From positions 1 to 23,213 of IMG/VR virus record IMGVR_UViG_3300042691_015007: a DNA stretch of 23,213 nucleotides. The stretch is one strand, 5' to 3'. Positions 796 to 23,213 of the stretch are shown here, piece by piece. Position numbers and translations under genes: made by a program. Source of the stretch: a virus. The notes beneath the pieces are model-generated. The model saw nothing but the letters and a program-made list of their open reading frames with translations. It did no database searches and was not told the DNA's origin. Every line of letters starts with the position of its first letter. The first letter of the stretch is position 1.

Positions 796-865
796 GCGAA
801 CCTCCAGCCACAACGTAGGTGTAAACAGCCTGTGCAATCAGCACGGCGATCAGTGCGTAGATCAT
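779..865 (-). CDS. 28-aa single-span membrane peptide
   Basis: A very short frame starting MIYALIAVLIAQAVYTYVV, almost entirely one hydrophobic segment (residues 2-20) with a polar C-terminus. It has a good AAGGAG ribosome site. Its ATG overlaps the stop of the 862-1572 gene (ATGA), and its 3' end holds the ribosome site of the next gene, so without it there would be an unusual gap in an otherwise gapless operon. It is likely an inner-membrane micropeptide. The GTGTAAAC motif lies inside it at 819-826. Confidence 0.5.
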   Translation of the reverse strand: MIYALIAVLIAQAVYTYVVAGGSHENSD

Positions 866-1572
866 TGTTGCTCCTTAATTGCGTAGTCGTGAAATATTGC
901 CCCCTTGCTTGCGTCACCCACCTTGCAGGACTTGACCCAGACGTTCTTTCCCGTTTTTAGCCTCCTCAGATGGCCCCTGCGCTCATGCAGGCGGGGTGAT
1001 GCGTGTGTACCCCCTTTGGGGTCTTGGCGGGGCTTGGATGGCTCAATCCACACCGTCGTCCAGTCGTAAGTCGGCAGCTTGCCCTGCTGCACCTTACGGC
1101 GGTTGGTGAAGGTGTCCCGCATAGATGGGATGTAAGCCTCAATGCGCTGGTCCATGGCGCTGTACCAAACACCAATCTGCGCCAGCATGATCTCAGCCAG
1201 TTCCCTGTCTATCGGCTCATCATCACTGACTGCGCCGTAACGGATGTTGTCATCCTCAATAAAGTAGAACATCGCAGGGATGGGGCGCAGCTTTGTGCCG
1301 CTTGGGCCTTTCCACATAGACACCGTGATGCCCTCATCAGGGTCGGTCCCTGCTACGAGCATCAGAACCTCATAGCTTGGGTGGCTGCGAGTCTTTCCCC
1401 TCCAAGTGACAAAACATTTGTCGAATGGTGGGCGATGCGTCATCACAGGTTCAAGGTTGGCGCGTTGCTTGTCAGTGAACGCACCAGACAGGTCAAACCA
1501 TTTGATGTCCACAATGTCCACGCCAGCATCAGCCATCAGCTTCATAGAGTCACGAACAAGTTGAGTGGTCAT
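862..1572 (-). CDS. conserved phage hypothetical protein, 236 aa
   Basis: The largest of the accessory genes in the left arm. Residues 1-70 form an alpha/beta N-terminus, and the middle is a mixed fold. The C-terminal third has a basic stretch (SPRLHERRGHLRRLKTG, about residues 190-206) followed by KNVWVKSCKVGDASKG, which looks like a small beta-barrel or nucleic-acid-binding tail. I recall similar ...RLHERRGH.R.L..G...WV endings in unnamed phage proteins, but know no function. The ribosome site AAGGAG is upstream of the ATG. The gene is linked by ATGA overlaps to both neighbours. Confidence 0.75.
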   Translation of the reverse strand: MTTQLVRDSMKLMADAGVDIVDIKWFDLSGAFTDKQRANLEPVMTHRPPFDKCFVTWRGKTRSHPSYEVLMLVAGTDPDEGITVSMWKGPSGTKLRPIPAMFYFIEDDNIRYGAVSDDEPIDRELAEIMLAQIGVWYSAMDQRIEAYIPSMRDTFTNRRKVQQGKLPTYDWTTVWIEPSKPRQDPKGGTHASPRLHERRGHLRRLKTGKNVWVKSCKVGDASKGAIFHDYAIKEQQ

Positions 1573-1811
1573 GTGTTCTTTCTCCTTGATGCGTCTTCGA
1601 TGGCTTTCATTAAATCTTCGTCGTCATGCGATGGGTCGCCCCACCCTATGATTTCTCGCCACAGATTGTTGCGCTCTTTATCAGTCAGCCCAACCCATGT
1701 GCGCTGTGCGTCCAGCGCTTTGTTCGCCATCTCAAGCGCGTTCTTCAAGCGGTGCAACTCAAGCTCAACGTCCTTGAGTTTTTCGATGGCCTCAAATGTT
1801 TTGGTGTTCAT
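1569..1811 (-). CDS. coiled-coil protein with AQRTWVGLTD tail module
   Basis: 80 residues. Residues 5-35 have a heptad-like pattern typical of a coiled coil (EAIEKLKDVELELHRLKNAL). Then comes AQRTWVGLTDKE and a helical tail. The AQRTWVGL(T/S)D block recurs in the gene at 2439-2867 with 21 identical bases. Such blocks are shared among many unnamed phage proteins of betaproteobacteria and behave as an exchangeable C-terminal module. There is a ribosome site GGAGAG, and ATGA overlaps link it to the gene downstream. Confidence 0.65.
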   Translation of the reverse strand: MNTKTFEAIEKLKDVELELHRLKNALEMANKALDAQRTWVGLTDKERNNLWREIIGWGDPSHDDEDLMKAIEDASRRKNT

Positions 1812-2008
1812 GCGCTCTCCTGCGTTTCTTCGTTTACGGGCCAGAGGTAATTGGCGTTGCGCAAAATGTCGTCAGCCAATTTACGGGCCAAGTTCTCGTT
1901 GAGAATAAAGTGACCCATGCTGTCAATGCGGACGACCACTCCTTGGCCTAACCCTTCTTCGTAACTTGAAATACCAACGGCGATGTAGTCGCTGCTGAAC
2001 TTTTTCAT
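1808..2008 (-). CDS. hypothetical 66-aa protein
   Basis: Start chosen at ATG 2008 (MKKFSSDYIAVGISSYEEG) because AAGGAG lies just upstream. Beta-strands (YIAVGISS, GVVVRIDS, HFILN) are followed by a helix (LARKLADDILRNA). This strand-rich body ending in 'N...A..LADDI..' resembles small unnamed phage proteins I cannot name. Soluble; function unknown. Confidence 0.6.
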   Translation of the reverse strand: MKKFSSDYIAVGISSYEEGLGQGVVVRIDSMGHFILNENLARKLADDILRNANYLWPVNEETQESA

Positions 2009-2867: not shown

Positions 2868-3070
2868 ACGTCTTCTCCTGAAATCTTCAGTGCGTCATCA
2901 GTAATCTGTTGGACATACCGCAGTACATCTTCGAGATCAGATTTGTGAGTGAAGCGTTTGTTTACACGTTGCTTTATCTGCCACAGTGTGTCAAACGCTT
3001 CATCTGCGTGGATTGCTCTACGGCACTTCTCAGTATCCTGTGGATAGTTGAACTCGAGTACGGCCTTCAT
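2864..3070 (-). CDS. hypothetical 68-aa protein
   Basis: Start at 3070 (MKAVLEFNYPQDTEKC) rather than 3082, because GGAG is correctly placed only for 3070. The pattern LEFNYPQD..KCRRAIHADEAFDTLWQIKQR.N followed by a helix resembles a family of unnamed phage proteins whose N-terminal strand is followed by 'A.H....F..LW.I'. It is acidic at the C-terminus, and its stop overlaps the next start. GTTTACAC lies inside it at 2960-2967. Role unknown. Confidence 0.65.
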   Translation of the reverse strand: MKAVLEFNYPQDTEKCRRAIHADEAFDTLWQIKQRVNKRFTHKSDLEDVLRYVQQITDDALKISGEDV

Positions 3071-3150: not shown

Positions 3151-3420
3151 TTAAATTTTGGGCTCGTGATACTCCTCGTTGGAATCACCATCGTCGGATT
3201 CTGATTGCTCAACTTCTCGCTTGTCCATGTGTCCATGATATTGCTCCGTTATCCAAAATCCTGCGTGATTGACCAGCATCCCAAGAGCCGTCATTTCTTC
3301 CGGTGTCCTGCAACGGCGGTTGACGCCGTGCTCTCCTGTGCGATGCATATCAAACGCAGAGTTGCTGTTGAAGTACTGTTTACATGCTTGGCATTGATTA
3401 CGATTGCCCGTCAGCTTCAT
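3151..3420 (-). CDS. small zinc-finger-like protein
   Basis: 89 residues. Residues 10-31 read CQACKQYFNSNSAFDMHRTG plus EH, a CxxC...HxxxxH arrangement like a classical C2H2 zinc finger. It continues with RRCRTPEEMTALGM, and ends in an acidic tail (SESDDGDSNEEY). Zinc-finger proteins of this 'F....AF..H..G.H....R.C....EM...GM' type occur in many phages and are assumed, not proven, to bind DNA or protein. Start at ATG 3420, with a G-rich ribosome site; a TTG six bases upstream is possible. It overlaps the 3' end of the RHH gene by 23 bases. Confidence 0.65.
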   Translation of the reverse strand: MKLTGNRNQCQACKQYFNSNSAFDMHRTGEHGVNRRCRTPEEMTALGMLVNHAGFWITEQYHGHMDKREVEQSESDDGDSNEEYHEPKI

Positions 3421-3721
3421 GATCAACCCCCTCTCGCATCAGGCCCTTGCTGACCTCTTGTTCCACCAACTCAAAGAAGGAGAGCCCTGAGGGGAATCGC
3501 ATCTGAGCCGCCTCGATACCGCCAACGATCTTGATGGCCTTCAGAAGCCCCTCGTTGAAACCGCTGGTGTACTGATTGCCAGAAGACAGCCGAGCATCAA
3601 TGCCCTCCCGCACAATCTGAGTCATCGGCATCTTGTGGGCCTTGGAAAAGCGCTTGAGTCTGACGATGTCCTTGGGCTCAAGGTATGTCATGAATGGTTT
3701 GTAGTTTGTTGAGAATGTCAT
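3398..3721 (-). CDS. ribbon-helix-helix (CopG/Arc-like) DNA-binding protein
   Basis: 107 residues. Residues 12-45 (MTYLEPKDIVRLKRFSKAHK then MPMTQIVREGIDARL) fit a ribbon-helix-helix fold: a short strand, helix, turn, and a second helix beginning at the conserved 'P.T..VREGI'. The C-terminal half is helical and may mediate dimer-dimer contacts. Such proteins bind palindromic operators as dimers, so this is a candidate regulator of the phage. Start at 3721, with a modest GGGAAAG ribosome site. The upstream gene stops 11 bases earlier. The family call rests on pattern only. Confidence 0.6.
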   Translation of the reverse strand: MTFSTNYKPFMTYLEPKDIVRLKRFSKAHKMPMTQIVREGIDARLSSGNQYTSGFNEGLLKAIKIVGGIEAAQMRFPSGLSFFELVEQEVSKGLMREGVDHEADGQS

Positions 3722-3731
3722 TTTCTTTCCC

Positions 3732-4124
3732 TTAAAACGGATCGTCTGGCCATTTGTATGTTTCGTATTCCTTGACCAGATCGTCAAAGATTTGCTTGGC
3801 CACTTCATTGCCGTGCAGCTCGGTGCGGCTTTCGACGCCGCATCGTTTACACAGCTCTACCGCTGCCTCGTTTTCCGTGTTGACCTCGAGGAAGTCATGG
3901 AACTTGGGTTCTTTGCAGAGCATCCCTGCCTTCTGAACCCTGTTGTTGTACGGGGTAGCGGACTCGTCATCTTGAATCCGCACCAGCGCACAACCGTATC
4001 TCGCCCCAACGAAGTCACGCAGAATCTCTTCTGGGCACTCGTCAGGGTGGATTGCCAGCGTCAAGACAAAACCTGTGCGGTCTTGTTTCAACGCCACCTT
4101 TCGTGCTTCAAACTGAAGTGCCAT
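3732..4124 (-). CDS. conserved phage hypothetical protein, 130 aa
   Basis: The N-terminal half has strands typical of unnamed phage proteins: KVALKQDRTGFVLTLAIHPD, then ECPEEILRDFVGARYGCALVRIQDD. I know similar '..HPDD.PE.L....VG.RY...LV.I.DDE' proteins from many phages, none with an assigned function. The C-terminal half has Cys at about residues 69, 91 and 94 (CKRCG). It overlaps the upstream HTH gene by 17 bases. The ribosome site is weak, so the start is less certain. GTTTACAC lies inside it at 3845-3852. Confidence 0.65.
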   Translation of the reverse strand: MALQFEARKVALKQDRTGFVLTLAIHPDECPEEILRDFVGARYGCALVRIQDDESATPYNNRVQKAGMLCKEPKFHDFLEVNTENEAAVELCKRCGVESRTELHGNEVAKQIFDDLVKEYETYKWPDDPF

Positions 4125-4539
4125 TTGGGTTTGCCTCGGTCAATACATCACGGATGTACTGGTCGATGATTCCTTGAAGGACGGCGGTGCGGGTTGTCTT
4201 TCTGCCCGATGCCAGCGCAGAGATGACCCAGTAGTGGGGCTGGGTAACACCCACCGCAAAACCCTCTGTCTTGCTCTTGGGGACAAGAAGCGCCTCTGGT
4301 TTCTTTTCCTTTGGCTTCTTCTCCTTTTTTGGAGATGGCCCCAAGACTTGGTAGACATACGGCTTGGATGTTCCAGCGGCCTCAGCGATCTCCTTCACAG
4401 AAGCATTTGGGTTTGCGGTTTTGTAGTCGCGAATTTTTTGCGAGATCGAGAAATTTGAATTGTTCTCCTGCGGGATTTCGGAGATGTTCAACTCGGCAGT
4501 TTTTTCGGGTGCTGGGATTGTTTTCAAAAAATCTAACAT
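4108..4539 (-). CDS. helix-turn-helix DNA-binding protein
   Basis: 143 residues from the ATG at 4539, chosen for its GAGGAG ribosome site. Residues about 41-66 (ANPNASVKEIAEAAGTSKPY and VYQVLG) fit a helix-turn-helix. A basic linker (KKEKKPKEKKPEA) follows. The C-terminal segment ALASGRKTTRTAVLQGIIDQ resembles a second small DNA-binding or dimerisation helix pair. It sits just downstream of the SSB-like and annealing genes, so it may act in DNA replication or as an early regulator. The specific family was not identified. Confidence 0.6.
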   Translation of the reverse strand: MLDFLKTIPAPEKTAELNISEIPQENNSNFSISQKIRDYKTANPNASVKEIAEAAGTSKPYVYQVLGPSPKKEKKPKEKKPEALLVPKSKTEGFAVGVTQPHYWVISALASGRKTTRTAVLQGIIDQYIRDVLTEANPNGTSV

Positions 4540-4549
4540 GGTGCTCTCC

Positions 4550-4867: not shown

Positions 4868-5517
4868 TATTTATTCTCCGAAAGTTGCTTCTTCAGTTCT
4901 GCGAAGCGATTGCGAACCCGGTCGTAAAGATCGGGGTGACTTACTTTGAGCCCATCAAGCTGAGCCTGATTGGCCTTCCAGTAACTGTTTAAACCTTTGA
5001 CGTCAGTGCAATGGTTTGTGTATGTCATCATTCCTTCAGCAAACAACTCTGCGTTTGCATCTGCCTGTCCAGTGTTGACCTGAACATCTGCCATCGCAGT
5101 GCCGTCTGGAGTCACGGCCTTGACGATTACAGGCTCTACTGCGTTGTCCTCTGGCAAATCCTCACCCGCATAGATATACAGGCCCAATCCGTGTAGCGCC
5201 AAGCCCTTGGTCATGCATCGCATGATGGAGGTGTTGACCTGAAAGGAGTCAGGGTTCTGGATCGGTTGGTTGCGGTGGTTCATCACCGGGAGGAAGCATG
5301 TCATTGGCTTGCCAAACATGGTGACGGTGACCCACACCATGCCCGTGCCGTTTACATCCATGTACGGCTTGCCGTCAAAGGTCTGCACTTCAAACGTGGC
5401 GGCAGGGTCGGCCTTCAAAGCTTCTGCCCATGCCCATGCCCATGACAGGTAGGACAGGTTTTGCTTCTTCTCAACGTGGTCGTTGACGTTCAGCTTCAAC
5501 AGGTCAAGCTGGGACAT
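4867..5517 (-). CDS. Sak/DUF1071-type single-strand annealing protein
   Basis: 216 residues. The N-terminal block NLSYLSWAWAWAEALKADP (residues 20-38) and the following FEVQTFDGKPYMDVNGTGMV, VWVTVTMFGK, then NTSIMRCMTKGLALHGLGLY are characteristic of DUF1071/Sak-type annealing proteins, which belong to the RecT/Redbeta/Erf recombination functions. It would anneal complementary strands produced by the exonuclease encoded just upstream. Start 5517 has AAGGAG. The ATG at 5607 would add 30 residues but would overlap the exonuclease gene by over 100 bases. One GTTTAAAC (4987-4994) lies in it, using a TTA leucine codon. Confidence 0.8.
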   Translation of the reverse strand: MSQLDLLKLNVNDHVEKKQNLSYLSWAWAWAEALKADPAATFEVQTFDGKPYMDVNGTGMVWVTVTMFGKPMTCFLPVMNHRNQPIQNPDSFQVNTSIMRCMTKGLALHGLGLYIYAGEDLPEDNAVEPVIVKAVTPDGTAMADVQVNTGQADANAELFAEGMMTYTNHCTDVKGLNSYWKANQAQLDGLKVSHPDLYDRVRNRFAELKKQLSENK

Positions 5518-6370: not shown

Positions 6371-6375
6371 CTTAA

Positions 6376-6383: not shown

Positions 6384-6389
6384 GTTTGT

Positions 6390-6824
6390 ATGACTGACAT
6401 CTGCAATGATAGTGATGATACAACAGAATTGCAATCCCTTGCACAAATTATTTTTGGTGAGCCAGCATCAAAAGCCAACAGCCGAAGGGTTGTGAAGTTC
6501 GGGTCAATGTCCCGGCTCATCAAAAGCCAGAAGGCGCTGAACTATTCGGAGATGTTTAAACAACAGTGCAAGCGCCTGCCATACCTGATGACGGGAGACT
6601 TGAGAGTTACTCTCTGGATTTACTACGCAAGCCGTAGACCCGACTTGGATGAGTCCCTGATCCTCGATCTGATGCAGGGGCTGATCTACGAGAACGACCG
6701 ACAGGTCAAGGAGCGCCATGCGTACTGGGGGCTTGACCCAGAGAACCCAAGGGCAGAGATACTTATAGAGAGGATCGAAGAGATCGCCCCCAAAAAGAAA
6801 CCCCAGCGCAAGGGCCGGGGTTAA
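6390..6824 (+). CDS. rusA: RusA-like Holliday junction resolvase
   Basis: 144 residues, the usual RusA length. The family signature is clear: RRPDLDESL with Asp85 and Asp87, followed by YENDRQVKERH with Asp103, matching the acidic residues that bind metal in RusA. The C-terminus is basic (PKKKPQRKGRG). RusA cleaves Holliday junctions as a dimer and would complete recombination begun by the exonuclease and annealing protein encoded divergently. The start has CGGAGG five bases upstream. The first codons contain the promoter of the leftward operon, and GTTTAAAC occurs at 6554-6561. Confidence 0.85.
   Translation: MTDICNDSDDTTELQSLAQIIFGEPASKANSRRVVKFGSMSRLIKSQKALNYSEMFKQQCKRLPYLMTGDLRVTLWIYYASRRPDLDESLILDLMQGLIYENDRQVKERHAYWGLDPENPRAEILIERIEEIAPKKKPQRKGRG
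6406..6434 (-). promoter_or_regulatory. promoter for leftward recombination operon
   Basis: On the minus strand TTGCAA (-35, 6429-6434), a 17-bp spacer and TATCAT (-10, 6406-6411) place the start of transcription near 6399, leaving a leader of about 29 bases with the ribosome site of the exonuclease gene. The promoter lies inside rusA codons 6-15. The match to the sigma70 consensus is good. Confidence 0.6.
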
Positions 6825-7000
6825 AGGAGAAGCAACTGCAAGGGGGAGAAACCCTGCGCCGCCAGTGTAAACGAAATGCAGGCCGCGTGCGTGCAGGCTC
6901 ACCGCGTGAGCTACTGCGTTTAAACATGCGTTGATTTGTATTGGGGCGCATTGGGGCACGTTGATTTGCTCTAAGGGTTTATCCCTAAGAACGTTCGCAA
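6825..7000 (+). other. non-coding region with repeats and palindromes
   Basis: First part of a 608-bp stretch without a gene. It contains GTGTAAAC (6865-6872), a GCTCAC-CGC-GTGAGC hairpin (6897-6911), GTTTAAAC (6918-6925), and GAACGTTCG (6989-6997). It also has a nested repeat: CGTTGATTTG at 6929 and 6959 flanking two tandem ATTGGGGCRC units (6940-6959). No convincing coding frame was seen. It looks like a control region ahead of the 7008-7036 promoter. Confidence 0.5.
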
Positions 7001-7007
7001 TCTCTTC

Positions 7008-8134: not shown

Positions 8135-8383
8135 ATGCGAGACTACAAACAAGAATACGCCAACTACGATGGCACACCCGAGGTTAAGAAGAAGAGAGCG
8201 CAGAGAAACAAAGCCCGAAGAATGCTGGAGCGTGAAGGGATCGTGAAGAAGGGTGACGGCAAGGATGTCGATCACATGACCCCTCTCAGTAAAGGCGGCA
8301 CAACTGCCCGCAGTAACCTTAAGGCCAAGCCCGCATCGGCCAATCGCTCGTTTAAACGCACATCCACCGGGGCCATCAAATGA
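8135..8383 (+). CDS. small HNH-type endonuclease
   Basis: 82 residues from the ATG at 8135, preceded by AGGAAG. The N-terminal half is highly basic and helical (KKKRAQRNKARRMLEREG). The C-terminal half has an HNH core: DVDHMTPLSKGG with His47, SNL with Asn61 and SANRSF with Asn70. It is shorter than homing HNH enzymes. Small phage HNH proteins are often linked to packaging or DNA processing; here the gene overlaps the primase-helicase start (ATGA), so a replication-linked nicking role is possible. GTTTAAAC lies at its end (8350-8357). Confidence 0.7.
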   Translation: MRDYKQEYANYDGTPEVKKKRAQRNKARRMLEREGIVKKGDGKDVDHMTPLSKGGTTARSNLKAKPASANRSFKRTSTGAIK

Positions 8384-10074
8384 TCGAAGCGCTCGTAGCG
8401 GATACATACTTCAATGATTCGACACGGGTGATCTGCCCCTTCTGCACTCCAGACCGCAGAAAACAAAACGTCAAGGACATGACCCTCACCCGCAAGAGTG
8501 ACGGGGCCGTTGTCTATCACTGCCATCACTGCTATGCATCGGGTTCAGTGCAACCCAAGGAGAACAAATTGTCAGCAGTCCCTGCCGCAACAATCGTCAA
8601 CAACAGGCTCACCCATCAACATTACCAGTGGCTCAAGTCACGGGGCATATCGGAGATCACAGCAGATGCCATGCGTCTGTTCTCAGCGGAAAAGTTCTTC
8701 TCCCGACTCAGCAAACCAACACAGGCCATTGGCTTCCCTTACTACCGCAGTGGGGCGCTGGTCTCAGCGAAGTACCGAAGCATCGAGGCCAAGGACTTCA
8801 CCCAAGACGCAGGTGGAGCGCATGACTTCTTTGGCATCGATAAGGTAGAGAAGGGCCAGCCCCTCATCATTGTCGAAGGCGAGATGGATTGCCTGACAGC
8901 CATCGAGGCGGGTATCGCCAACGTGGTCAGTGTTCCCGGTGGCGCTCCCGTCAAGGTCGCAGATGGCAAGGTGCTACCGACAGAGGACAAGAAGTTTGGG
9001 TTTGTCTGGAATGCCCGAGAGATCATTGATGCCGCACCCTACGTTGTTCTCGCTACAGATCAAGACCCTCCCGGTCAAGCGCTGGCAGAAGAGTTGGCAA
9101 GGCGCATCGGCAAAGAGAAATGCAGACTCGCCAAGTTCGGGTGGAAGGATTTAAACGAAGCATGGCTCGACGACGACCCGACGGCAGACGACACGCCGGT
9201 GGAGCGTTTAAACAAGATCATCAATGACGCCGAGCCGTACCCCATCAACGGCATTTCAGAAGCAACCTCATTCATCGACAAGATCAACGACCTCTACACC
9301 AAGGGCACGGGCAGAGGGTTCAGCACAGGGTATCAGTCGGTGGACAACATCTACACAGTCGCACCGGGGCAGATGACTGTGGTGACGGGTTACCCGTCCA
9401 GTGGCAAGTCGAATTTCGTTGACCAGTTGATGGTCAATCTCGCAAGGTCATCGGATTGGAAGTTTGCGATATGCTCGTTTGAGAACCAGCCCGAGGTTCA
9501 CATCACCCGCCTCATGGAACTTTACACGTTTCAATCCTTCTACGAAGGCCGGGACAGGATGAGCGAGAGCGCAAAGATGGATGCGTTTAAATGGGTCAAT
9601 GACCACTTCCTTTTCATCGACACCAACGGCGAAGAACCCAGCACCCTCGAGTCGATCCTGACAAGGGCGAAGGCGGCAGTGAAGCGAATGGGGGTGCGTG
9701 GTCTGGTGATCGACCCGTACAACTACATTGAAATGCCGGGGTCAGACAAGACGGAGACGAATGCCATCAGCGACATCCTGACGAAGGTCAAGAAGTTCTG
9801 CATGGCTCATGATGTACACACATGGTTTGTCGCCCATCCAAGCAAGATCAATCGCTCTGGTGTCGAACAGCCCCGTCCAGACGGGATGTCGATCAGTGGT
9901 TCGATGGCGTGGTGGGCGAAGACAGACTGTGGACTGACGATCCACAGGAAGGACAACTACACGGAGTTGGCTGTCTGGAAGTGCCGCTACCGATGGGTAG
10001 GGACTCAAGGGGAAACAACCCTGATCTTCAACAAGACGGCAGGGACATACTCAGAGAATCTGGATATGTTTTAA
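8380..10074 (+). CDS. T7 gp4/Twinkle-like primase-helicase
   Basis: 564 residues with the full bifunctional order. A zinc-binding primase domain (Cys19, Cys22, Cys48, Cys51) comes first. A TOPRIM fold has EGEMD (166-170) and ATDQDPPGQA (Asp227, Asp229). The DnaB-type helicase has Walker A GYPSSGKS (337-344), Walker B LVIDPYNY (442-449) and a C-terminal FVAHPSK motif. It would unwind the replication fork and prime lagging-strand synthesis. It starts in the stop of the HNH gene and ends just before a strong terminator. Its only two TTA leucine codons are at 9149-9156 (ATTTAAAC) and in the GTTTAAAC at 9206-9213. Confidence 0.92.
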   Translation: MIEALVADTYFNDSTRVICPFCTPDRRKQNVKDMTLTRKSDGAVVYHCHHCYASGSVQPKENKLSAVPAATIVNNRLTHQHYQWLKSRGISEITADAMRLFSAEKFFSRLSKPTQAIGFPYYRSGALVSAKYRSIEAKDFTQDAGGAHDFFGIDKVEKGQPLIIVEGEMDCLTAIEAGIANVVSVPGGAPVKVADGKVLPTEDKKFGFVWNAREIIDAAPYVVLATDQDPPGQALAEELARRIGKEKCRLAKFGWKDLNEAWLDDDPTADDTPVERLNKIINDAEPYPINGISEATSFIDKINDLYTKGTGRGFSTGYQSVDNIYTVAPGQMTVVTGYPSSGKSNFVDQLMVNLARSSDWKFAICSFENQPEVHITRLMELYTFQSFYEGRDRMSESAKMDAFKWVNDHFLFIDTNGEEPSTLESILTRAKAAVKRMGVRGLVIDPYNYIEMPGSDKTETNAISDILTKVKKFCMAHDVHTWFVAHPSKINRSGVEQPRPDGMSISGSMAWWAKTDCGLTIHRKDNYTELAVWKCRYRWVGTQGETTLIFNKTAGTYSENLDMF

Positions 10075-10112: not shown

Positions 10113-10362
10113 ACTTCAGCGCATAAAACACGGCGCTGATCACGTTGTTGTATCTCCCGTAAATCTGGGGAGTGTCTCTGTGCGTGTAAACGCACCAGTA
10201 CTGTTTGGCTGGGCTGTACTTGATGTACCGCTCACCTCGTCCAAACTTCTGAGAGTTTGCAGAAGTTTGAGAGTTTGGAACCAGTTCAAGCAAGTGGGCA
10301 TACTTTGTGCTCTGTCTGATGAAGTGAGGGCATGGATCAATCAGCGTCTTGACCTTACGCAC
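10111..10362 (-). CDS. hypothetical 83-aa protein, GTG start
   Basis: Last gene of the long minus operon. It begins with GTG (MRKVKTLIDPCPHFIRQ) overlapping the stop of the upstream gene in an operon that otherwise uses ATG. The middle is basic and aromatic (GRGERYIKYSPAKQYWCVYT). The C-terminus ends in NNVISAVFYALK. It contains a symmetric GTGCGTGTAAACGCAC site (10180-10195). Not recognised. Confidence 0.55.
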   Translation of the reverse strand: MRKVKTLIDPCPHFIRQSTKYAHLLELVPNSQTSANSQKFGRGERYIKYSPAKQYWCVYTHRDTPQIYGRYNNVISAVFYALK

Positions 10363-11330: not shown

Positions 11331-12941
11331 TCAAGCGGCAAGCTTGATTTGTTTAAACGAAACAGCACCGATGTCAGCGATGTCATTCACTGCCACGGCG
11401 TTGCCGTAGATGCCAGAGACATCGGCCTTGATGCCGACACCAATGGTTGTCACACCCAGCGCGTTGCCGGACTGGATTTGTTGGCGAACCCCACCGGGGT
11501 TGCCGTACCCGTCAGTGATCACGAAGACCAACTTGCGGTGTTCATTGCGCCGTGCCAGCAACTCATGTGAGTAGCGCAGGGCGGTGTAGTCGTTTGTCCC
11601 ACCAGCAGGGCTGACACGCCCGATCAGGGTGTTGCCCTTGCGATGGTTCATGCCGAAGGGCTTGATCTCAAACACGGCAGACCCGAAGGCCACAACCGCA
11701 GTCTTGACCCCAGCCGCATCAAGCGTCTCCAGCAGGGCACGGCACGTTGCAACAGCAGGGCCAATGCGAGGCTTCTTGCCGTGGTCGTTGTCGAACATCG
11801 AACCCGAGATGTCCAGCAAGATCACAACCGCAGAGTCCACACCCTCCACATCGAGGCGGCGTTTAAACACACGGTCGTTACCAGTGGCCACAGATGGCAG
11901 GGCATGGACGTTGACCACACCAGCCTTGCGGTTGCGGCTGAACTCAGTCAGACCCGAGTTGTCGAACAGGCGCTTGACCTCATAGCGAAGCTTTGCAGGG
12001 ATGGGGGCAGTCTCCAGACCATCCCGCTCGGTGTCCCGAAGGCAACCGCTACCCTTTCGGATTTGCTCGGAGGTGTAGTTGCCCATCACCCCACCGCTGG
12101 GCAGTTTGGGCTCGACCTCCCTTGCCTCGACATCAACAGGGGATTGGACGGGCGCATCAGGGGCCGCAGGAGCCTCTTTGCCCTCTTCCGCACCCTTACC
12201 CTTGTCCTCACCCTGATCGGGGCTTGTAGGCCCATCCTGACCATTTGTAGGGCCATCCTTGGGCTTGCCGGGGCGACCATCGGGCTTGTCGTTGGGCTTG
12301 TCGGGCTTCTGACTCTGTTGCTTGATCTGTTCGTAAACCCACAGAGCAATCTTCAAGGTGTCGGTGCTGGACGTTGCGCTTTCGCACTTCACCGCCGCCA
12401 TGTTAAAGATGGCAGTCAGGCGGGGGTTGCAGGGAACCTTGACAGTGGCGTGTTTACGGCAAGCCACTGCGAGGATGTAGGGGTACTGGCGGGGATCGTT
12501 CCAATCCTTGACGGTCGCCAATGCCTCACGGGTCATGGTGTCGATCAACTCACCCAGCAGGGGGCCGATGTTGCCGAGCAGACCAGAGGCAATCCCGGTG
12601 TTCTCGATCCAGCCATCTTCCACGGCGTTGTGCAGGGTGCGGATGTAGTCGTTATCACCTCTTGCATGGAAGTCGGTGTACTTGTGGTGCAACAGTTCAT
12701 GCACCACATAACCCGCATACTTGACCACCAGCGCACGGCTCACCGTGGAGTCATCAGGGATGCCAGCAAGGTACAGGTTGCCATCCGAGTTGATGCCAGC
12801 GGTCTGGACATCATGCCGCCAGTAGACAGACACACGGCGCAGACCCAGAGAGTTGCCCACCTTGTGGGCGAAGGCCTCCAGACCCAGACGGAACTCAAGG
12901 CCACGCACGGAGGGGCGAGAGAGAATGGTTTCGATGTTCAT
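11331..12941 (-). CDS. CobT-like VWA-domain protein with HExxH motif
   Basis: 536 residues from the ATG at 12941 (GAGG upstream). Residues 1-200 form a helical domain with VVHELLHHKYTDFH (HExxH at 81-85) and HNAVEDGWIE (104-113), a zinc-metallopeptidase-like arrangement known in CobT-type VWA proteins. Residues 205-285 are a low-complexity Pro/Gly/Lys/Asp linker. Residues 365-536 are a von Willebrand factor A domain with the MIDAS motif DISGS (377-381), a distal Thr in GGTNDYT (about 449) and ITDG (Asp477). It follows its MoxR partner by 7 bases. Cobalamin synthesis is not implied; the pair probably remodels a protein target. Confidence 0.8.
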   Translation of the reverse strand: MNIETILSRPSVRGLEFRLGLEAFAHKVGNSLGLRRVSVYWRHDVQTAGINSDGNLYLAGIPDDSTVSRALVVKYAGYVVHELLHHKYTDFHARGDNDYIRTLHNAVEDGWIENTGIASGLLGNIGPLLGELIDTMTREALATVKDWNDPRQYPYILAVACRKHATVKVPCNPRLTAIFNMAAVKCESATSSTDTLKIALWVYEQIKQQSQKPDKPNDKPDGRPGKPKDGPTNGQDGPTSPDQGEDKGKGAEEGKEAPAAPDAPVQSPVDVEAREVEPKLPSGGVMGNYTSEQIRKGSGCLRDTERDGLETAPIPAKLRYEVKRLFDNSGLTEFSRNRKAGVVNVHALPSVATGNDRVFKRRLDVEGVDSAVVILLDISGSMFDNDHGKKPRIGPAVATCRALLETLDAAGVKTAVVAFGSAVFEIKPFGMNHRKGNTLIGRVSPAGGTNDYTALRYSHELLARRNEHRKLVFVITDGYGNPGGVRQQIQSGNALGVTTIGVGIKADVSGIYGNAVAVNDIADIGAVSFKQIKLAA

Positions 12942-12948
12942 GTGAACC

Positions 12949-14406
12949 TCACAGGTATTTTTGAATCTCTGTCTCGTTGATGCAAGACAGGTAGATGGCA
13001 GTGAGACCGGGGAGGGACTCAACTGGTTGACGGGCGGCAATGGTGGATGCCCACGCCTTGTCCACGGGCAAGACCCGCAGGGCACGGACAAACGCAATCA
13101 CAGACCGAATGGAGGGGGCATCAATGACCTCGCCTGTCTGCACCTTCTCACGGGCCACACGCACAGCACCAAGGATGTGGGCGGCAAGCTTGATGTCGCA
13201 CCCAGTGTGGCGCACCACAGCGTCCACCTCGGACATGATGGGGAGGTAGTCGAACTGCACCACACGGGCGAAGCGGTCAACCAGAGCGCTGTTCATCTGG
13301 CGTGTGCCAGCGTAGCGGCCCGAGTCATCACCGTTGCCCAGCGTGTTGTCGGCGGCAAAGACCAGCACACCGGGGGCACGGGTCTGGACAGACCCACCGA
13401 AGGACACGGCGCTGTTGGGCTCAAGGAACCCGTTGAGAGGGGCCAGTTCGCCGGGATCAGCGTTGGTCACCTCATCCAACAGGATCACAGTGGAAGGGTG
13501 TGTGAAGGCGGCAAGGAAGTCACCACGCTTGAACACGGTCTGCCCATTCTCAAGACCCACTGCACCGATGTAATCCTCGACAGAGGTGTACTTGTGGAAG
13601 TTGATGCGTTTAAACGCACGGCCTGTCATGGCGGCAAACTGTCGAGCGGTCTCAGACTTGCCAGTGCCCTTTGGCCCACCGAACCAGACGTTCTCGCCCA
13701 AGTCCTGAGACAGGATCAGGTGCTGGAGGATGTCGGCAGTCCAGATGAAGTTGGGATCAACAGCCGGGGCAGAGGGGTCATTCCAGATGTCCACCTTGAG
13801 GGGGTCACCCTTACGATCCAGCACCTCTACACCAAAAAGCTTCAAGCAGGTCACATTGCCCACCACATGAACAGAGGAAAGGTCTGCGACCACAGACTGA
13901 GCACCAGCGGCCTCGACTGCTTTGCGGAAAGGTGCGAAGGCATCAGCGACAACCTTGTTGACGGCCTCTTCTACCTTACGGTCATCAATCTTGGTCTCGC
14001 CAAGCTTCTTGGCAATGTCCCGAATCTCGGTGCGCAGGGTGTCATCATCCTGAATCCGGGCATTGCGGTCATCTGCCAACTCATCGGACAGTTTCTGGTG
14101 AAACCTCTTGACGGCCTCGATGGCCTTGAGGGCGGCGGCCTCTGCACGGTTTGCAACAGACCCCACGGCATCCACGGCGGCGGTGTCTGCGCCTTGAACA
14201 GCAGACACAGCCACAGGGGTGGCGGCTTTGATGTCGGCGAGGGTCAGGCTGTTGGCCCGGACACAACTGACAAGGTAGTCGGCGGCCTTGCTTTTCTGCT
14301 CGGCTGGTGTGCCGGGGAAAGTGCCACCACCCCGCAGGGCGTAAGCACCCAACACCACACCAATGGGAAGCTTCAAGATTTCGATTTTGATTTGCAGGTC
14401 AGTCAT
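12949..14406 (-). CDS. MoxR/CobS-like AAA+ ATPase
   Basis: 485 residues. The first 200 are Ala-rich and coiled-coil-like (for example AEAAALKAIEAVKRFHQKL). The AAA+ domain follows: Walker A GPKGTGKS (244-251), Walker B VILLDE (307-312), sensor 1 AADN (351-354), an arginine finger region ALVDRF (374-379) and a C-terminal helical lid. This is the MoxR group that works with VWA proteins as a chaperone-like remodelling pair. The ATG at 14406 is preceded by GGAGAA and by GTTTAAAC (14418-14425). It is flanked by SprT-like and VWA genes in one operon. Confidence 0.85.
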   Translation of the reverse strand: MTDLQIKIEILKLPIGVVLGAYALRGGGTFPGTPAEQKSKAADYLVSCVRANSLTLADIKAATPVAVSAVQGADTAAVDAVGSVANRAEAAALKAIEAVKRFHQKLSDELADDRNARIQDDDTLRTEIRDIAKKLGETKIDDRKVEEAVNKVVADAFAPFRKAVEAAGAQSVVADLSSVHVVGNVTCLKLFGVEVLDRKGDPLKVDIWNDPSAPAVDPNFIWTADILQHLILSQDLGENVWFGGPKGTGKSETARQFAAMTGRAFKRINFHKYTSVEDYIGAVGLENGQTVFKRGDFLAAFTHPSTVILLDEVTNADPGELAPLNGFLEPNSAVSFGGSVQTRAPGVLVFAADNTLGNGDDSGRYAGTRQMNSALVDRFARVVQFDYLPIMSEVDAVVRHTGCDIKLAAHILGAVRVAREKVQTGEVIDAPSIRSVIAFVRALRVLPVDKAWASTIAARQPVESLPGLTAIYLSCINETEIQKYL

Positions 14407-14419
14407 TGCAGTTCTCCGT

Positions 14420-14998
14420 TTAAACAAGGTTCAGGACATCGCTGTCCACAGGGCAAGAGGGAAGGCCAAGAGCGGCCCATTTGGAAGTCAGGCGCACGGT
14501 GTAGCCACAAGAGGGGCACACAGCCTTGAGCATGCGAGTGGTCTGCACCTTCTTGGTGTTCATGGTCAGGGCGGCGTGAGGGTAAGGGCCGAGCGAGTCC
14601 ACGATTGCCCCGAAGGTGGGGACGAATGAGGCGGCAGGGCCAGTGGCCTTCCAGCCCTTGGGGCCAGCAGAGGGCTCAAGATGCATCTTCTGGGCGATGC
14701 TCTGGAAGTTGACCCCGTGGTTCATGGCCCCGGCAGTCGAGTGGCAGAGTTCATGCACCAACACATCGAACACCCGCAGGGGGTCATCCAGCACAGGGCT
14801 GATCAAGACCTCGAAGGTTGCATCAGCAGAGGCGGTGTCTGCCCAGCACTCACCGATGGCCCCACTGCGTTTGGCGTTGGACGGGAAGCCGCACGAAACA
14901 CGAACGTTCGTTGGCAAGGGTGAGCACACCGCATCAAAGAAGGGGCGCAGTTCAGAGACGGCGGCAGAGAGCCAGTCTTCACGGTTGTTGATTGTCAT
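14420..14998 (-). CDS. SprT-like zinc metalloprotease
   Basis: 192 residues. VLVHELCHSTAG holds HExxH (82-86), with a possible third ligand His94 in AMNHGVNF. The C-terminus has CPSCGYTVRL (Cys161, Cys164) and SCP (Cys182), a zinc-ribbon-like end lacking an obvious fourth Cys. The layout is that of SprT/Spartan-type proteases, which in cells degrade DNA-protein crosslinks. In this phage it could clear proteins from DNA before packaging. Its stop codon TAA lies inside a GTTTAAAC site, and the MoxR gene starts 13 bases later. The HELCH motif and zinc end are seen; the substrate is inference. Confidence 0.75.
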   Translation of the reverse strand: MTINNREDWLSAAVSELRPFFDAVCSPLPTNVRVSCGFPSNAKRSGAIGECWADTASADATFEVLISPVLDDPLRVFDVLVHELCHSTAGAMNHGVNFQSIAQKMHLEPSAGPKGWKATGPAASFVPTFGAIVDSLGPYPHAALTMNTKKVQTTRMLKAVCPSCGYTVRLTSKWAALGLPSCPVDSDVLNLV

Positions 14999-15031
14999 TG
15001 CAATTCTCCTGTGCTAGTGATTGTAAAGGGT

Positions 15032-15346
15032 TTAAACCGAAGGGGTCAAGATGGTGTTGAAACGATCAGACCCGACACGCTCAATGAGGGCATCGATCTG
15101 TTGCTGGGCGAGGCCACGAATCTCACGCAGGGTCATGCCCTTGCTGGCAACGGGCATCCCTTTGAACTGTCCGACAACGTGAAGCACCTTGCCGCCAGAG
15201 CGGGGGTCAGACACAGCCCAGAAGCCGAGGTTGTCCCGGTGCAGGTGGAGGGTGTGGGTCACAGACCCAGCATGGCAGACCAGCAGGTGTGACTTGACGG
15301 TCTCGATTTCAGAGCCGTCCTTGCGGCGCAGGGTGATGGTAGGCAT
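15032..15346 (-). CDS. hypothetical 104-aa protein
   Basis: 104 residues, beta-rich N-terminus (MPTITLRRKDGSEIETVKSH, then LHRDNLGFWAVSDPRSG), a GMPVASKGMTLREIRGLAQQ linker and a C-terminal helix. It starts with MPT after a CACCTGAAAGGAACC leader. The stop TAA is again embedded in GTTTAAAC (15030-15037). It lies between the SprT-like gene and the repeated hairpin element. Not recognised. Confidence 0.65.
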   Translation of the reverse strand: MPTITLRRKDGSEIETVKSHLLVCHAGSVTHTLHLHRDNLGFWAVSDPRSGGKVLHVVGQFKGMPVASKGMTLREIRGLAQQQIDALIERVGSDRFNTILTPSV

Positions 15347-15369
15347 AGGTTCCTTTCAGGTGTTTAAAC

Positions 15370-16118: not shown

Positions 16119-16149
16119 ATGATACCACTATCGTGTAAACAGGTGTCAA
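16119..16149 (-). promoter_or_regulatory. promoter for the leftward MoxR-VWA operon
   Basis: On the minus strand a perfect TTGACA (-35, 16144-16149) and TATCAT preceded by TGG (extended -10, 16119-16124), with a somewhat long 19-bp spacer. The spacer contains GTTTACAC (16133-16140 as GTGTAAAC on the plus strand), so a protein binding that motif would block or bend this promoter. Confidence 0.55.
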
Positions 16150-16592: not shown

Positions 16593-16593
16593 T
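16566..16593 (+). promoter_or_regulatory. rightward promoter overlapping DnaA boxes
   Basis: TTGACG (16566-16571), a 16-bp spacer and GATAAT (16588-16593), each one base from consensus. The inverted DnaA-box pair fills the whole spacer and enters the -10. Transcription would start near 16600, just before GTTTAAAC (16606-16613, within CTGTTTAAACAG), and run into the terminase and portal genes. Binding of DnaA would be expected to block RNA polymerase here. Confidence 0.55.
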
Positions 16594-16646
16594 GCGAACG
16601 AAGCTGTTTAAACAGACAGGCTGGATGAAACCACAGGAGCGAAACC

Positions 16647-17285: not shown

Positions 17286-17482
17286 AGGGCAACGGTCATC
17301 AGCAGGGGAGCGTGTAAACGGCTGGGATGGCGACCCCACCCACGCCCCACCCCCCAAAATGCGCAGCGACGGCCCCGCTCCCGCTTACGCTCTAATCCAC
17401 TCATCCCATCACATTCCCACACATACCCCCATCAATCGGAAATCCCCACCCCCCGGGGGTATATATATTTTCGGGAATACCC

Positions 17483-17511
17483 TTGCGAACGTTCGTTTGT
17501 GCGTTTAAACT
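17483..17511 (+). promoter_or_regulatory. candidate leaderless promoter for the wHTH gene
   Basis: TTGCGA (17483-17488), a 17-bp spacer and TAAACT (17506-17511), four of six matches each. The expected start of transcription coincides with the ATG at 17518, and no ribosome site is visible, so the mRNA may be leaderless. GAACGTTCG overlaps the -35 and GTTTAAAC (17503-17510) overlaps the -10. The preceding 17286-17482 holds GTGTAAAC (17312) and a GGGTAT...ATACCC pair, but no gene. Confidence 0.4.
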
Positions 17512-17517
17512 CTCGGC

Positions 17518-17751
17518 ATGTTGAATGAAAAGCATCAATTGGTATTGGACTTCATCCGTGCGTATGTGCGTTTACACGGCGTCCCGCCGTCGTATTCCGT
17601 GATTGCTCGGGGGTTGGGATTGAAGAGTAAGTCGAACATCCACCGGGTGATTCACATCCTTCAGGATGAGGGACTGTTGGTGATCAAGCCCCACAAGTTC
17701 AATTCGATCAAGCTTCTAGATAAGACGGTGAAGGGGGTAGCTTCTCTATGA
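17518..17751 (+). CDS. LexA-type winged helix-turn-helix protein without protease domain
   Basis: 77 residues: MLNEKHQLVLDFIRAYVRLH, then GVPPSYSVIARGLGLKSKSN and IHRVIHILQDEGLL. This follows the LexA N-terminal DNA-binding domain closely (start with a short helix, 'G.PPS...IA..LGLKS.S..HR....L...G.L'), but it ends after 77 residues, so the self-cleaving S24 domain is absent. It may be a stand-alone DNA-binding regulator. It sits between terS and terL and its stop overlaps the terL start. LexA-like winged helices read GAAC half-sites in several bacteria, which fits the GAACGTTCG over its promoter, but binding is inference. Confidence 0.7.
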   Translation: MLNEKHQLVLDFIRAYVRLHGVPPSYSVIARGLGLKSKSNIHRVIHILQDEGLLVIKPHKFNSIKLLDKTVKGVASL

Positions 17752-19244
17752 TGACTCGTCAGGAGGTGGAGAAGTACCGTGAGTTGATTCCTCTCGTCGC
17801 AGATGATGAGAGAGCCAAGATCATGATGTTGTTGGAATACGACAGGGTGGAGAAGTGCAGGGAGTCGTTCATTTACTTCGCCTCCCACATGTGGCCCGGG
17901 TTCATTTCCGGGAAACATCACCAGATCATGGCCAACGCTTTTGAGCGTGTTGCAAAAGGTGAGTTGAAGAGGCTCATCATCAACATGCCTCCTCGGCACA
18001 CCAAGTCCGAGTTTGCCTCCTACCTTCTCCCGGCGTGGTTCTTGGGGAAGTACCCCGAGAAGAAGATCATCCAGACTGCTCACACCGCAGAACTGGCTGT
18101 GGGTTTTGGCCGCAAGGTGAGGAACCTCGTATCGTCCGAGACCTTCTCCCGGGCGTTTGACACCAAACTGTCCTCTGACTCAAAGGCCGCAGGTCGCTGG
18201 AACACGGACAAAGGTGGTGACTACTTCGCGATTGGTGTTGGTGGCGCGGTAACAGGTAAGGGCGCTGATCTTTTGATCATTGACGACCCCCATTCGGAGC
18301 AGGAAGCCAAGCAGGGCAACCCCGCAGTCTTTGACAATGTGTATGAGTGGTACACATCCGGCCCTCGGCAGCGTTTACAGCCCGGTGGAGCCATCATCAT
18401 TGTGATGACACGCTGGTCAAAGAGAGATTTGACCGGGCAAATACTGAAAAACTCCGAAAAAGACGGTGTAAATGAGTGGGAAGTCATCGAATTCCCCGCA
18501 ATTTTGCCCTCGGGCAACCCTCTTTGGCCCGGATTTTGGAAGAAAGAGGAGCTCGAGGCCATTAAGGCCGAGATTCCCGTCTCCAAATGGGAAGCGCAGT
18601 ACCAACAGAACCCCACATCCGAGGGAAATGCGATCATCAAGCGTGATCACTGGCGGATTTGGGAGTCGGACGTCGCTCCCGCTTGTGAATACATCATCCA
18701 AAGTTGGGACACGGCCTTCGAGAAGTCCAACCGGTCCGACTATTCGGCTTGCACAACGTGGGGTGTCTTTCAACACCCCAACCAACATGGCGATCTGAAG
18801 CCAAACATCATCTGTCTGGACGCAGTGAAGGCTCGTATGGAGTTCCCTGAGCTCAAACAGAAGGCTCTTGAGATGTACAAAGAGTGGGAGCCGGACACAT
18901 TGATCGTGGAAAAGAAAGCCGCAGGGGCTCCCTTGATCTATGAGCTCAGGCAGATGGGAATTCCGCTTTCAGAGTACACACCGGGCAAAGGAAGCGATAA
19001 GATTGCGCGTGTAAACGCAATCTCGGACCTTTTTGCCTCGGGAGTTGTTTGGTGCCCACAAACAAGATGGGCAGATGAGTTGATGGAAGAGTTGGCGGCA
19101 TTCCCTAACGGGGACCATGACGACCTTGTTGACTCCTCAAGCCAAGCGCTGCTTCGGTTTAGAAGGGGCGGCTTCATCCCAATCGAGTCGGATGAGCCGG
19201 AAGAGCAGCGGTATTTCCGCCGCAAGAGTAACGCCTTCTATTAA
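17748..19244 (+). CDS. terL: terminase large subunit
   Basis: 498 residues. The ATPase domain has the Walker A-like NMPPRHTKSE (79-88), Walker B LLIIDDPHSE (175-184) and VMTRWS (219-224). The nuclease domain has Asp321 in SWDTAFE, Glu388 in LIVEKKAAG and Asp458-Asp459 in GDHDDLVDS. It packages and cuts phage DNA at the portal. Two ATG codons in tandem begin it, overlapping the wHTH stop. Its sole TTA leucine codon lies in the degenerate motif GTTTACAG (about 18374), and GTGTAAAC occurs at 19009-19016. It is followed by the portal gene after 9 bases. Confidence 0.95.
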   Translation: MMTRQEVEKYRELIPLVADDERAKIMMLLEYDRVEKCRESFIYFASHMWPGFISGKHHQIMANAFERVAKGELKRLIINMPPRHTKSEFASYLLPAWFLGKYPEKKIIQTAHTAELAVGFGRKVRNLVSSETFSRAFDTKLSSDSKAAGRWNTDKGGDYFAIGVGGAVTGKGADLLIIDDPHSEQEAKQGNPAVFDNVYEWYTSGPRQRLQPGGAIIIVMTRWSKRDLTGQILKNSEKDGVNEWEVIEFPAILPSGNPLWPGFWKKEELEAIKAEIPVSKWEAQYQQNPTSEGNAIIKRDHWRIWESDVAPACEYIIQSWDTAFEKSNRSDYSACTTWGVFQHPNQHGDLKPNIICLDAVKARMEFPELKQKALEMYKEWEPDTLIVEKKAAGAPLIYELRQMGIPLSEYTPGKGSDKIARVNAISDLFASGVVWCPQTRWADELMEELAAFPNGDHDDLVDSSSQALLRFRRGGFIPIESDEPEEQRYFRRKSNAFY

Positions 19245-19253
19245 GGAATTGAC

Positions 19254-21743: not shown

Positions 21744-21937
21744 TGGACCACCAAATACTTGAGCACATCAGCAAAAAGCTGAGAGAGCGTGAGGTGGAGA
21801 TTGCAAGAGTTGTGGGTGACGGAGGGTGCAAGTCCTTCGATCACTACAAAGAACTGTGTGGTTTTATTCGGGGTCTTCAGACCGCGCAGTTTGAAATTGA
21901 AGACCTCGTCCGAAAAATAAAGGTAAACGATGACTGA
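21743..21937 (+). CDS. hypothetical 64-aa protein between portal and GroES-like gene
   Basis: 64 residues (MDHQILEHISKKLREREVEI then ARVVGDGGCKSFDHYKELCG and FIRGLQTAQFEIEDLVRKI), all-helical. Short genes of the '..F..Y....G...GL..A...I.DL' type often lie just after the portal in phages and are of unknown function. The start shares the last base of the portal stop, and the end overlaps the next gene by 8 bases. Confidence 0.65.
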   Translation: MDHQILEHISKKLREREVEIARVVGDGGCKSFDHYKELCGFIRGLQTAQFEIEDLVRKIKVNDD

Positions 21938-22328
21938 CTTTAACGTGCAGGCCGTGGACCTGTCTGGCATTCTCAACCAGCCGGTTGCAGACAAAGCCAA
22001 ACAGATTCCCGATCCAGCGACTTATCACCTCCTGTGCATGCTTCCAGAGGCGAAAGAAGAATACGAGGGTGGATTGCTCAAATCCAGTCAGACGATGCAG
22101 TTTGAAGAACTGCTGTCGCCCGTACTCTTCGTTGCCAAGATTGGACCGGATGCATTTAAAGACGAGAAACGCTTCCCAAGCGGGCCAAGTTGCAAGGTTG
22201 GTGACTTTGTTCTGGTACGACCCAACAGTGGCACCCGGATGAAAATCCACGGCACTGAGTGGCGACTCATCAACGATGACTCAGTTGAGGCCGTGGTGGA
22301 AGACCCACGCGGCATTCAACGCCCATAA
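21930..22328 (+). CDS. GroES-like (co-chaperonin fold) phage protein
   Basis: 132 residues. The C-terminal part reads CKVGDFVLVRPNSGTRMKIH then GTEWRLINDDSVEAVVEDP, which corresponds to the GroES pattern 'VGD.V.......G......G.EY.......I.AV'. The N-terminal half (GILNQPVADKAKQIPDP...YHLLCMLPE) contains 'YHLLCMLPEAKEEYEGG', comparable to 'R.LV.....E.....GGI' of GroES. Phage co-chaperonins such as T4 gp31 help host GroEL fold the capsid protein, and this gene sits just ahead of the probable scaffold and capsid genes. The call is pattern-based. Confidence 0.6.
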   Translation: MTDFNVQAVDLSGILNQPVADKAKQIPDPATYHLLCMLPEAKEEYEGGLLKSSQTMQFEELLSPVLFVAKIGPDAFKDEKRFPSGPSCKVGDFVLVRPNSGTRMKIHGTEWRLINDDSVEAVVEDPRGIQRP

Positions 22329-22337
22329 GGAGCAATC

Positions 22338-23213
22338 ATGGCAGAGTTTGAAAAAACCGAGTTTGAGTTTCCGGACGAGGCGGAAAGCAAGAACCCTCGC
22401 GAAGGCGGCAAGGTTGTAGAGACTGAAGACACGGACATCGAGATTGTTGACGACACTCCCGAAGAGGATCGTGGCCGCAAACCTCAAGACCCTCCCAAAG
22501 AGGTAACCGACGAGGAGCTGGAGAAGTACACCGACCAGCGCCTTAAAACTCGTTTGGCCCACTTGGGCAGGGGTTATCACGACGAGCGCAGAGCCAAAGA
22601 AGCCGCACTCCGAGAGAAGGAAGAAGCCATTAAGGTGGCCCAGCAGATTGTCGAAGAGAACAAAAAACTCAAAGGCAGCCTGCATCAAGGCCAAAGCGCT
22701 CTTCTCGAGCAAGCGAAGAAGGTTGTTGCCAATGAAATGGAACAAGCCAAACGCAAGTTCAAAGAGGCATACGAAAGCGGCGACGCAGACGCACTGACGG
22801 CAGCTCAAGAAGAGATGACGATGGTGAAGATGAAGGCCGAGCGTGTAAACAATTTTCGGCCTGCCCCTTTACAGGAAGAAAAAACTGAGTTACAACTGCC
22901 CAAATCGCAGCCAGCTCCTCAATTGGACGAAAAAACACGTACTTGGACAGAGAAAAATACGTGGTTTGGACCCAATAAAAAAATGACGGCCTATGCTCTA
23001 GGTCTTCATGATGAGCTGGTAGCAAAAGGCTACACCTCAGGAAGCGACGATTACTACAAAGAAATCGACGCAGAAATGAGGAACAGATTTTCAGATGTAT
23101 TCGAGTCTGATAAGCCGGAGGATGCTCCTTCTTCTCCGAAAAGATCGAATGTTGTCGCACCGGCAACGCGTAGTACTGCTCCCCGAAAGGTCGTACTTAC
23201 CAAATCGCAGGTC
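22338..23213 (+). CDS. probable capsid scaffold/head-assembly protein, 3' truncated
   Basis: The frame is open to the end of the window (292 codons seen). The start MAEFEKTEFEFPDEAE has AAGGAG upstream. Residues 1-75 are very acidic. Residues 85-175 are a long charged helix likely to form a coiled coil (RRAKEAALREKEEAIKVAQQ, NEMEQAKRKFKEAYESGDAD). The segment after 195 is less charged (RTWTEKNTWFGPNKKMTAYA and YALGLHDELVAKG). Acidic helical proteins directly downstream of the portal usually are scaffolds, which fits its place. The true C-terminus, where scaffolds contact the capsid, is not visible. GTGTAAAC lies at 22843-22850. Confidence 0.65.
   Translation, partial: MAEFEKTEFEFPDEAESKNPREGGKVVETEDTDIEIVDDTPEEDRGRKPQDPPKEVTDEELEKYTDQRLKTRLAHLGRGYHDERRAKEAALREKEEAIKVAQQIVEENKKLKGSLHQGQSALLEQAKKVVANEMEQAKRKFKEAYESGDADALTAAQEEMTMVKMKAERVNNFRPAPLQEEKTELQLPKSQPAPQLDEKTRTWTEKNTWFGPNKKMTAYALGLHDELVAKGYTSGSDDYYKEIDAEMRNRFSDVFESDKPEDAPSSPKRSNVVAPATRSTAPRKVVLTKSQV

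Follow-up and report, generated by a model that had tools for sequence, protein, structure and literature searches.

A palindromic word dispersed through the genomes of a freshwater phage group and a small LexA-type protein as its candidate reader

Dispersed words in phage and bacterial genomes

In cluster A mycobacteriophages such as L5 and Bxb1, which have a gp71-type repressor, 20-30 repressor sites known as stoperators are dispersed in the genome, many of them off promoters; one site is found upstream of the repressor gene and the site sequence drifts between relatives (PMC6550527). Another iterated word, HIP1 (GCGATCGC), belongs to the host genomes of cyanobacteria and goes with methyltransferases (PMC4390886), while the GntR/HutC winged-helix regulators have the consensus GTMTAKAC (PMC4494728). 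The present analysis concerns 23,213 nucleotides of viral DNA, positions 1 to 23,213 of the IMG/VR record IMGVR_UViG_3300042691_015007 (hereafter the window), in which the palindromic octamer GTTTAAAC recurs together with an asymmetric form (GTGTAAAC or GTTTACAC). The word is held in place by selection across a group of phages, and GTTTAAAC, with GTGTAAAC and the drifted forms, is on balance probably the operator of a LexA-type protein of 77 amino acids encoded beside the terminase gene.

By their behaviour, stoperators are the nearest described system, with no claim of membership. In both cases tens of copies of one site occur per phage genome, many of them away from promoters, a copy lies upstream of the repressor gene, the repressor being a proposed one here, and relatives differ by drift of the site sequence. 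Stoperators are asymmetric and oriented with transcription, whereas the phage word is a palindrome located mostly within genes, and its asymmetric form follows the direction of the gene in 78 cases and opposes it in 83. An orientation-dependent set of the stoperator kind was rejected on these counts. Stoperator phages are temperate and carry an integrase or parABS, whereas no tyrosine integrase (PF00589) was found in 15 genomes, a search that did not include serine integrases or parABS. The proposed reader also differs from the stoperator repressor in its LexA-type winged helix.

With the LexA family (PF01726) the phage protein shares the winged-helix domain, the fold and, putatively, an autoregulated promoter; unlike LexA, it is very short and has no S24 self-cleavage domain. 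The LexA site is CTGT-N8-ACAG, with half-sites farther apart than those of the phage word, which has 8 bp and no spacer. The GntR/HutC consensus is likewise an 8-bp palindrome and has the frame of the phage word, which indicates that winged-helix dimers can read so short a palindrome, although these regulators belong to a different family with an additional C-terminal domain (no GntR model matched the LexA-like protein in the Pfam scan). The resemblance to HIP1 pointed out in the initial annotation of the window is a numerical one only, both being iterated palindromic octamers over-represented genome-wide at about one per kb; the association differs, as the phage word is linked to a phage LexA-like gene and not to a methyltransferase (no PF01555 in 12 genomes). 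Among the titles and abstracts covered by a literature search on GTTTAAAC, phage and genome, none was found to describe such a word in phages.

A word maintained by selection

Exact counting in the window gives 13 copies of GTTTAAAC, seven of GTGTAAAC, three of GTTTACAC and none of GTGTACAC, in which both half-sites are weakened. The initial annotation had reported the same 13 and 10 copies, in coding and non-coding DNA alike, and had put the expectation at well under one, which agrees with nulls of ~0.1-0.8: 0.25 copies of GTTTAAAC by base composition, a mean of 0.14 under a dinucleotide model (maximum 2 in 300) and 0.81 per strand under a third-order Markov model. The remaining octamers that differ from GTTTAAAC by one mismatch are present 0-5 times each, both strands summed, and the runner-up palindromic octamers have four copies each. 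The Markov probability of ~5e-12, which becomes ~3e-7 when corrected for 65,536 octamers, together with the dinucleotide null, rules out chance as the origin of the repeats. Longer symmetrical versions of the word, also noted at the outset, do exist at two sites (Table 1) but are not general, as flanks pooled from 174 sites extend the word only weakly, with Y at -5 and a slight preference for G at -6. A palindrome of 14-16 bp is therefore unsupported as the functional unit, which is approximately YGTTTAAACR, an 8-bp core with Y at -5.

The window is identical along its full length to part of IMGVR_UViG_3300031758_000088 (G001, 58,443 bases). Relatives were gathered as 80 contigs with a terminase 80-100% identical to that of the window; most of the genomes compared are metagenomic contigs of uncertain completeness. 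In nearly all large close relatives (up to 63 kb), GTTTAAAC is the top octamer with 17-49 copies per contig, and the first genomes examined, of 55-63 kb, have 21-49 copies against ~1-3 expected. It ranks first in the window and in nine of the ten relatives analysed whole, the tenth, G008, having GTTTAAAT in its place. Large non-drifted genomes of at least 46 kb contain 32-73 sites of GTTTAAAC and GTGTAAAC combined, with the exception of G010 (23). In a drifted subclade formed by G008, G017, G014 and G367, GTTTAAAT has 8-32 copies and GTTTAAAC 0-5, and in several cases the word is altered by one base at homologous positions. As whole contigs were counted in the relatives, the Markov comparison is answered genome-wide, with GTTTAAAC enriched. 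The phages concerned are a freshwater group, and the word is a property of this group and not an artefact of the window.

Selection is apparent from the comparison of genomes that are 78-81% identical, in which 61-81% of aligned word positions are conserved, as opposed to 17-24% for ordinary or same-composition octamers; the pairs, which have genomes in common, are not independent. For one pair at 81% identity, the word is kept at 13/16 positions versus 20-24% of octamers. Coding sites far from gene starts and intergenic sites are equally conserved (130/174 and 49/63, respectively). In-frame Phe-Lys codon pairs are kept in 48/64 cases within the word, in 27/46 when encoded by TTTAAA outside the word and in 35/84 with other codings. 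When synonymous codons are shuffled inside each gene, the coding copies fall from 7, 20, 26 and 31 to 0.33, 1.1, 3.2 and 2.2, a drop which rules out that codon and dipeptide use account for the word, the objection that the initial annotation had raised against itself. Moreover, GTGTACAC is seen nine times versus 26 expected under half-site independence, and this scarcity suggests a reader of two half-sites with a threshold.

Across the ten related genomes and the window, 392 of 539 sites (~73%) fall in called coding sequence; gene calls are our own and rough, with starts taken from a simple script, and the window overlaps G001 in the pooled counts. Compared with a uniform spread, intergenic sites are 2.5-3.7-fold enriched and coding sites stand at ~0.8-fold. 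In the window, 8 of the 23 sites precede a gene start by 7-33 bp. Promoter-like sequence (9/12 matches) is overlapped by 11% of intergenic sites and by 4% of random intergenic positions, an excess partly inflated because GTTTAAACT resembles a -10 box. The spacing is random (coefficient of variation ~1), with about one site per kb, and regular spacing was rejected on that basis.

The LexA-like protein as candidate reader

The open reading frame of the LexA-like protein matches PF01726 with 40.7 bits, above the curated cut-off of 23.7. Its match to TIGR00498 (40.2 bits for a cut-off of 110.95) involves the N-terminal 71 residues only, so that it is not a full-length LexA. The AlphaFold (AF2) model has a mean pLDDT (predicted local distance difference test) of 80, and its best matches in the PDB are LexA-DNA complexes, 3jso being the first (Foldseek E 0.004-0.02). 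The frame overlaps the start of the terminase gene, and the gene occupies the same place by the terminase in relatives.

Position and co-occurrence point to this protein as the reader. In 10 of 13 genomes the LexA-like gene has the word at most 60 bp upstream, compared with 26 of 199 (13%) other genes having at least 50 bp of intergenic DNA upstream; the nominal probability is 3e-7, for genomes that are related and several promoters that are shared by descent. The predicted -10 box of the LexA-like promoter, TAAACT, lies inside GTTTAAACT, and a similar layout of word and promoter is seen in G009, G364 and G366. Autoregulation of the gene is supported by this position. A second palindrome, GAACGTTC, occurs at 6352, 6989, 14902 and 17487 of the window; the last copy overlaps the -35 box and spacer of the same promoter and recurs there in many relatives, and it is perhaps the site of another regulator.

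The LexA-like protein would bind as a dimer to the word, with one weakened half-site still within its threshold, and would repress its own promoter as well as other promoters carrying the word. At intragenic sites it could act as a transcription roadblock, in the way stoperators block transcription in mycobacteriophages, or organise the genome as a sequence-specific coat, or do both. Tentatively, and with less confidence than the operator assignment itself, a protease-less LexA-type protein of this kind might be a genome-wide binder, part repressor and part nucleoid protein, whose dozens of conserved sites drift along with the protein, leaving related phages with different words.

More distant phages were compared as well. 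In the sister clade (terminase ~70%), a diverged LexA-like gene is present in 59 of 81 loci, mostly without GTTTAAAC. When enriched words were sought systematically in the DNA upstream of the LexA-like gene, the result was clear in clade A and, in the sister clade, good for G372 and weak for G374. In G372, CTGTTACTGT is found upstream of the gene with five other copies, and in G373 three copies of the 10-mer CTGTTAATGT lie upstream and four elsewhere, a number of other copies reached by 0.3% of random 10-mers. The word of G374, GTTACAGT, has 15 of its 19 copies in one frame and is given little weight, since it may partly reflect repeated codons. Another member of the sister clade, G381 (40 kb), carries a dispersed palindrome, GGGTWWACCC, with 8 copies versus 0.5 expected, which is not located upstream of its LexA-like gene. 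The flanks fetched for the DSL-LC04-type clade (terminase 58% identical) contain no LexA-like gene, and the word is not enriched in this clade. In the drifted clade, which carries GTTTAAAT, the recognition helix combines A39 and V41, a pair unseen in the other aligned sequences, and either change occurs singly alongside GTTTAAAC; this joint shift of helix and word speaks for the assignment but is only suggestive, being one event. Synechococcus phages have a LexA-like protein 40% identical; in the one genome read, Ssp-JY39, no iterated palindrome was found.

Several points weigh against the assignment of the word to the LexA-like protein. Gene and word are both inherited, so that their co-occurrence is confounded by descent and the 13 genomes are not independent. 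Several clades lack the word upstream of the LexA-like gene, the upstream DNA being seemingly coding in those inspected. G371 (38% G+C) has 14 copies of GTTTAAAC together with a LexA-like gene that has diverged strongly (E 0.005) and has no site just upstream. The shift of helix and word in the drifted clade took place only once in evolution. The wide separation of the half-sites in classical LexA operators is a further difficulty, and most sites are too far from gene starts for simple promoter repression to explain them all. Finally, ribbon-helix-helix proteins are well suited to short palindromes, and one candidate of that type, an Arc-like protein, is also conserved.

Alternative explanations

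The alternative that survives best retains the LexA-like protein as reader and differs in function alone. In a nucleoid-like or segregation role, the protein would coat and compact, or mark, the phage DNA while it is replicated or packaged, and transcription control would be secondary. The predominance of coding sites, their conservation at the level of intergenic ones, the random spacing of about one per kb, the lack of orientation bias and the failure to find a tyrosine integrase in 15 genomes are all in line with such a role, which is nevertheless somewhat doubtful given the intergenic enrichment of the sites and their overlap, even if partly inflated, with promoter-like sequence.

It is unlikely that the reader is instead the Arc-like (ribbon-helix-helix) protein encoded at 3401-3721 of the window. 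This protein is found in all relatives of at least 55 kb that carry the word, its motif fits the ribbon-helix-helix type (weak match to phrog_2639, E 0.047), and such proteins commonly bind 8-bp palindromes. However, the word is upstream of the Arc-like gene in 0 of 10 genomes, the presumed DNA-contact strand KPFMTYL is unchanged in the clade where the word has drifted, homologs only ~20-27% identical also exist in word-less sister genomes, and the structure model is weak. The protein has an extra conserved C-terminal part (MRFPSG..F.EL). A helix-turn-helix protein (4108-4602) was rejected as reader, no homolog having been detected in the word-bearing G004 and G009.

A nucleoid or regulatory protein of the host could also read the word, the phages gathering sites to recruit or titrate it; a shift in host range could then explain the drift to GTTTAAAT, and G371 could share the host. 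The only genome match is a Burkholderiales metagenome-assembled genome that bins two phage contigs, with terminases of the group and of the sister clade, and it gives a weak hint of Burkholderiales as host. In this candidate host, assigned from binned contigs, GTTTAAAC has 68 copies in 3 Mb, compared with 109 of a reversed control word, and the control outnumbers it in every one of the 41 genomes sampled from the host family (the candidate and 40 family members), perhaps partly on account of the TAA stop that the word contains. With no enrichment in the host sample and a word tied to the promoter of a phage gene, reading by a host protein is improbable, and mimicry of a host word, one of the functions suggested in the initial annotation, is unsupported within the limits of this weak host assignment.

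A methylation site, or a HIP1-like product of a methyltransferase and repair bias, is highly improbable: although the density and the first- and last-position drift of the word resemble HIP1 (PMC4390886), positional conservation and promoter placement are unexpected for such a word, NPPY-like catalytic motifs are few, and the search of 12 genomes for phage-encoded N6/N4 methyltransferases with the PF01555 profile was negative. Among the functions initially envisaged, a protein-binding site is the one that best explains the data.

Other features of the window

The genes of the window include those for terminase, portal, primase-helicase, a Sak-like annealing protein, an exonuclease, a RusA-like protein and CobS/CobT-like proteins. 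The CobT-like (VWA) and CobS-like (AAA ATPase) genes, at 11331-14998, adjoin a conserved, seemingly SprT-like gene, and GTTTAAAC is near several gene starts in this region. Four perfect DnaA boxes (TTATCCACA/TGTGGATAA: 16498, 16532, 16572 and 16584) are located in non-coding DNA before the small terminase gene; comparable clusters are present in several relatives, and a DnaA-dependent origin is possible.

Table 1. Sites of the word in the window, with the proposed reader gene and its predicted promoter (a point marks the palindromic form)
Feature	Position	Strand	Context
GTGTAAAC	819..826	+	25 bp upstream of minus-strand gene start
GTGTAAAC	2960..2967	-	coding
GTGTAAAC	3845..3852	-	coding
GTTTAAAC	4987..4994	.	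in Sak-like annealing protein gene
GTTTAAAC	6554..6561	.	in RusA-like gene
GTGTAAAC	6865..6872	+	intergenic
GTTTAAAC	6918..6925	.	intergenic
GTTTAAAC	8350..8357	.	22 bp upstream of primase-helicase start
GTTTAAAC	9206..9213	.	in primase-helicase gene
GTGTAAAC	10184..10191	+	coding, extended form GTGCGTGTAAACGCAC
GTTTAAAC	11351..11358	.	3' end of CobT-like gene, 31 bp upstream of next start
GTTTAAAC	11861..11868	.	in CobT-like gene
GTTTAAAC	13608..13615	.	in CobS-like gene, extended form TGCGTTTAAACGCA
GTTTAAAC	14418..14425	.	12 bp upstream of CobS-like start
GTTTAAAC	15030..15037	.	spacer of minus-strand promoter-like TTGACC-18-TACAAT (15049-15020), before SprT-like gene
GTTTAAAC	15362..15369	.	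15 bp upstream of minus-strand gene start
GTGTAAAC	16133..16140	+	long intergenic region
GTTTAAAC	16606..16613	.	just downstream of promoter-like TTGACG-16-GATAAT (16566-16593), before small terminase gene
GTGTAAAC	17312..17319	+	intergenic
Predicted promoter of LexA-like gene	17483..17511	+	TTGCGA, 17 bp, TAAACT; read from sequence
GTTTAAAC	17503..17510	.	putative operator in LexA-like gene promoter
LexA-type winged-helix protein, 77 amino acids, without S24 protease domain	17518..17751	+	proposed word reader
GTGTAAAC	17570..17577	-	inside LexA-like gene
GTGTAAAC	19009..19016	+	in large terminase gene
GTGTAAAC	22843..22850	+	coding, probable gene leaving window

Biological implications

Most documented cases of genome-wide operator sets come from temperate actinobacterial phages. 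If the operator assignment is true, a palindromic and orientation-free set would exist in a common group of freshwater phages in which no integrase has been detected, and whole-genome control or coating by a single small phage protein would be more widespread. The variants of protein and word found in these phages would then form a natural series in which a regulator and dozens of its sites change together.

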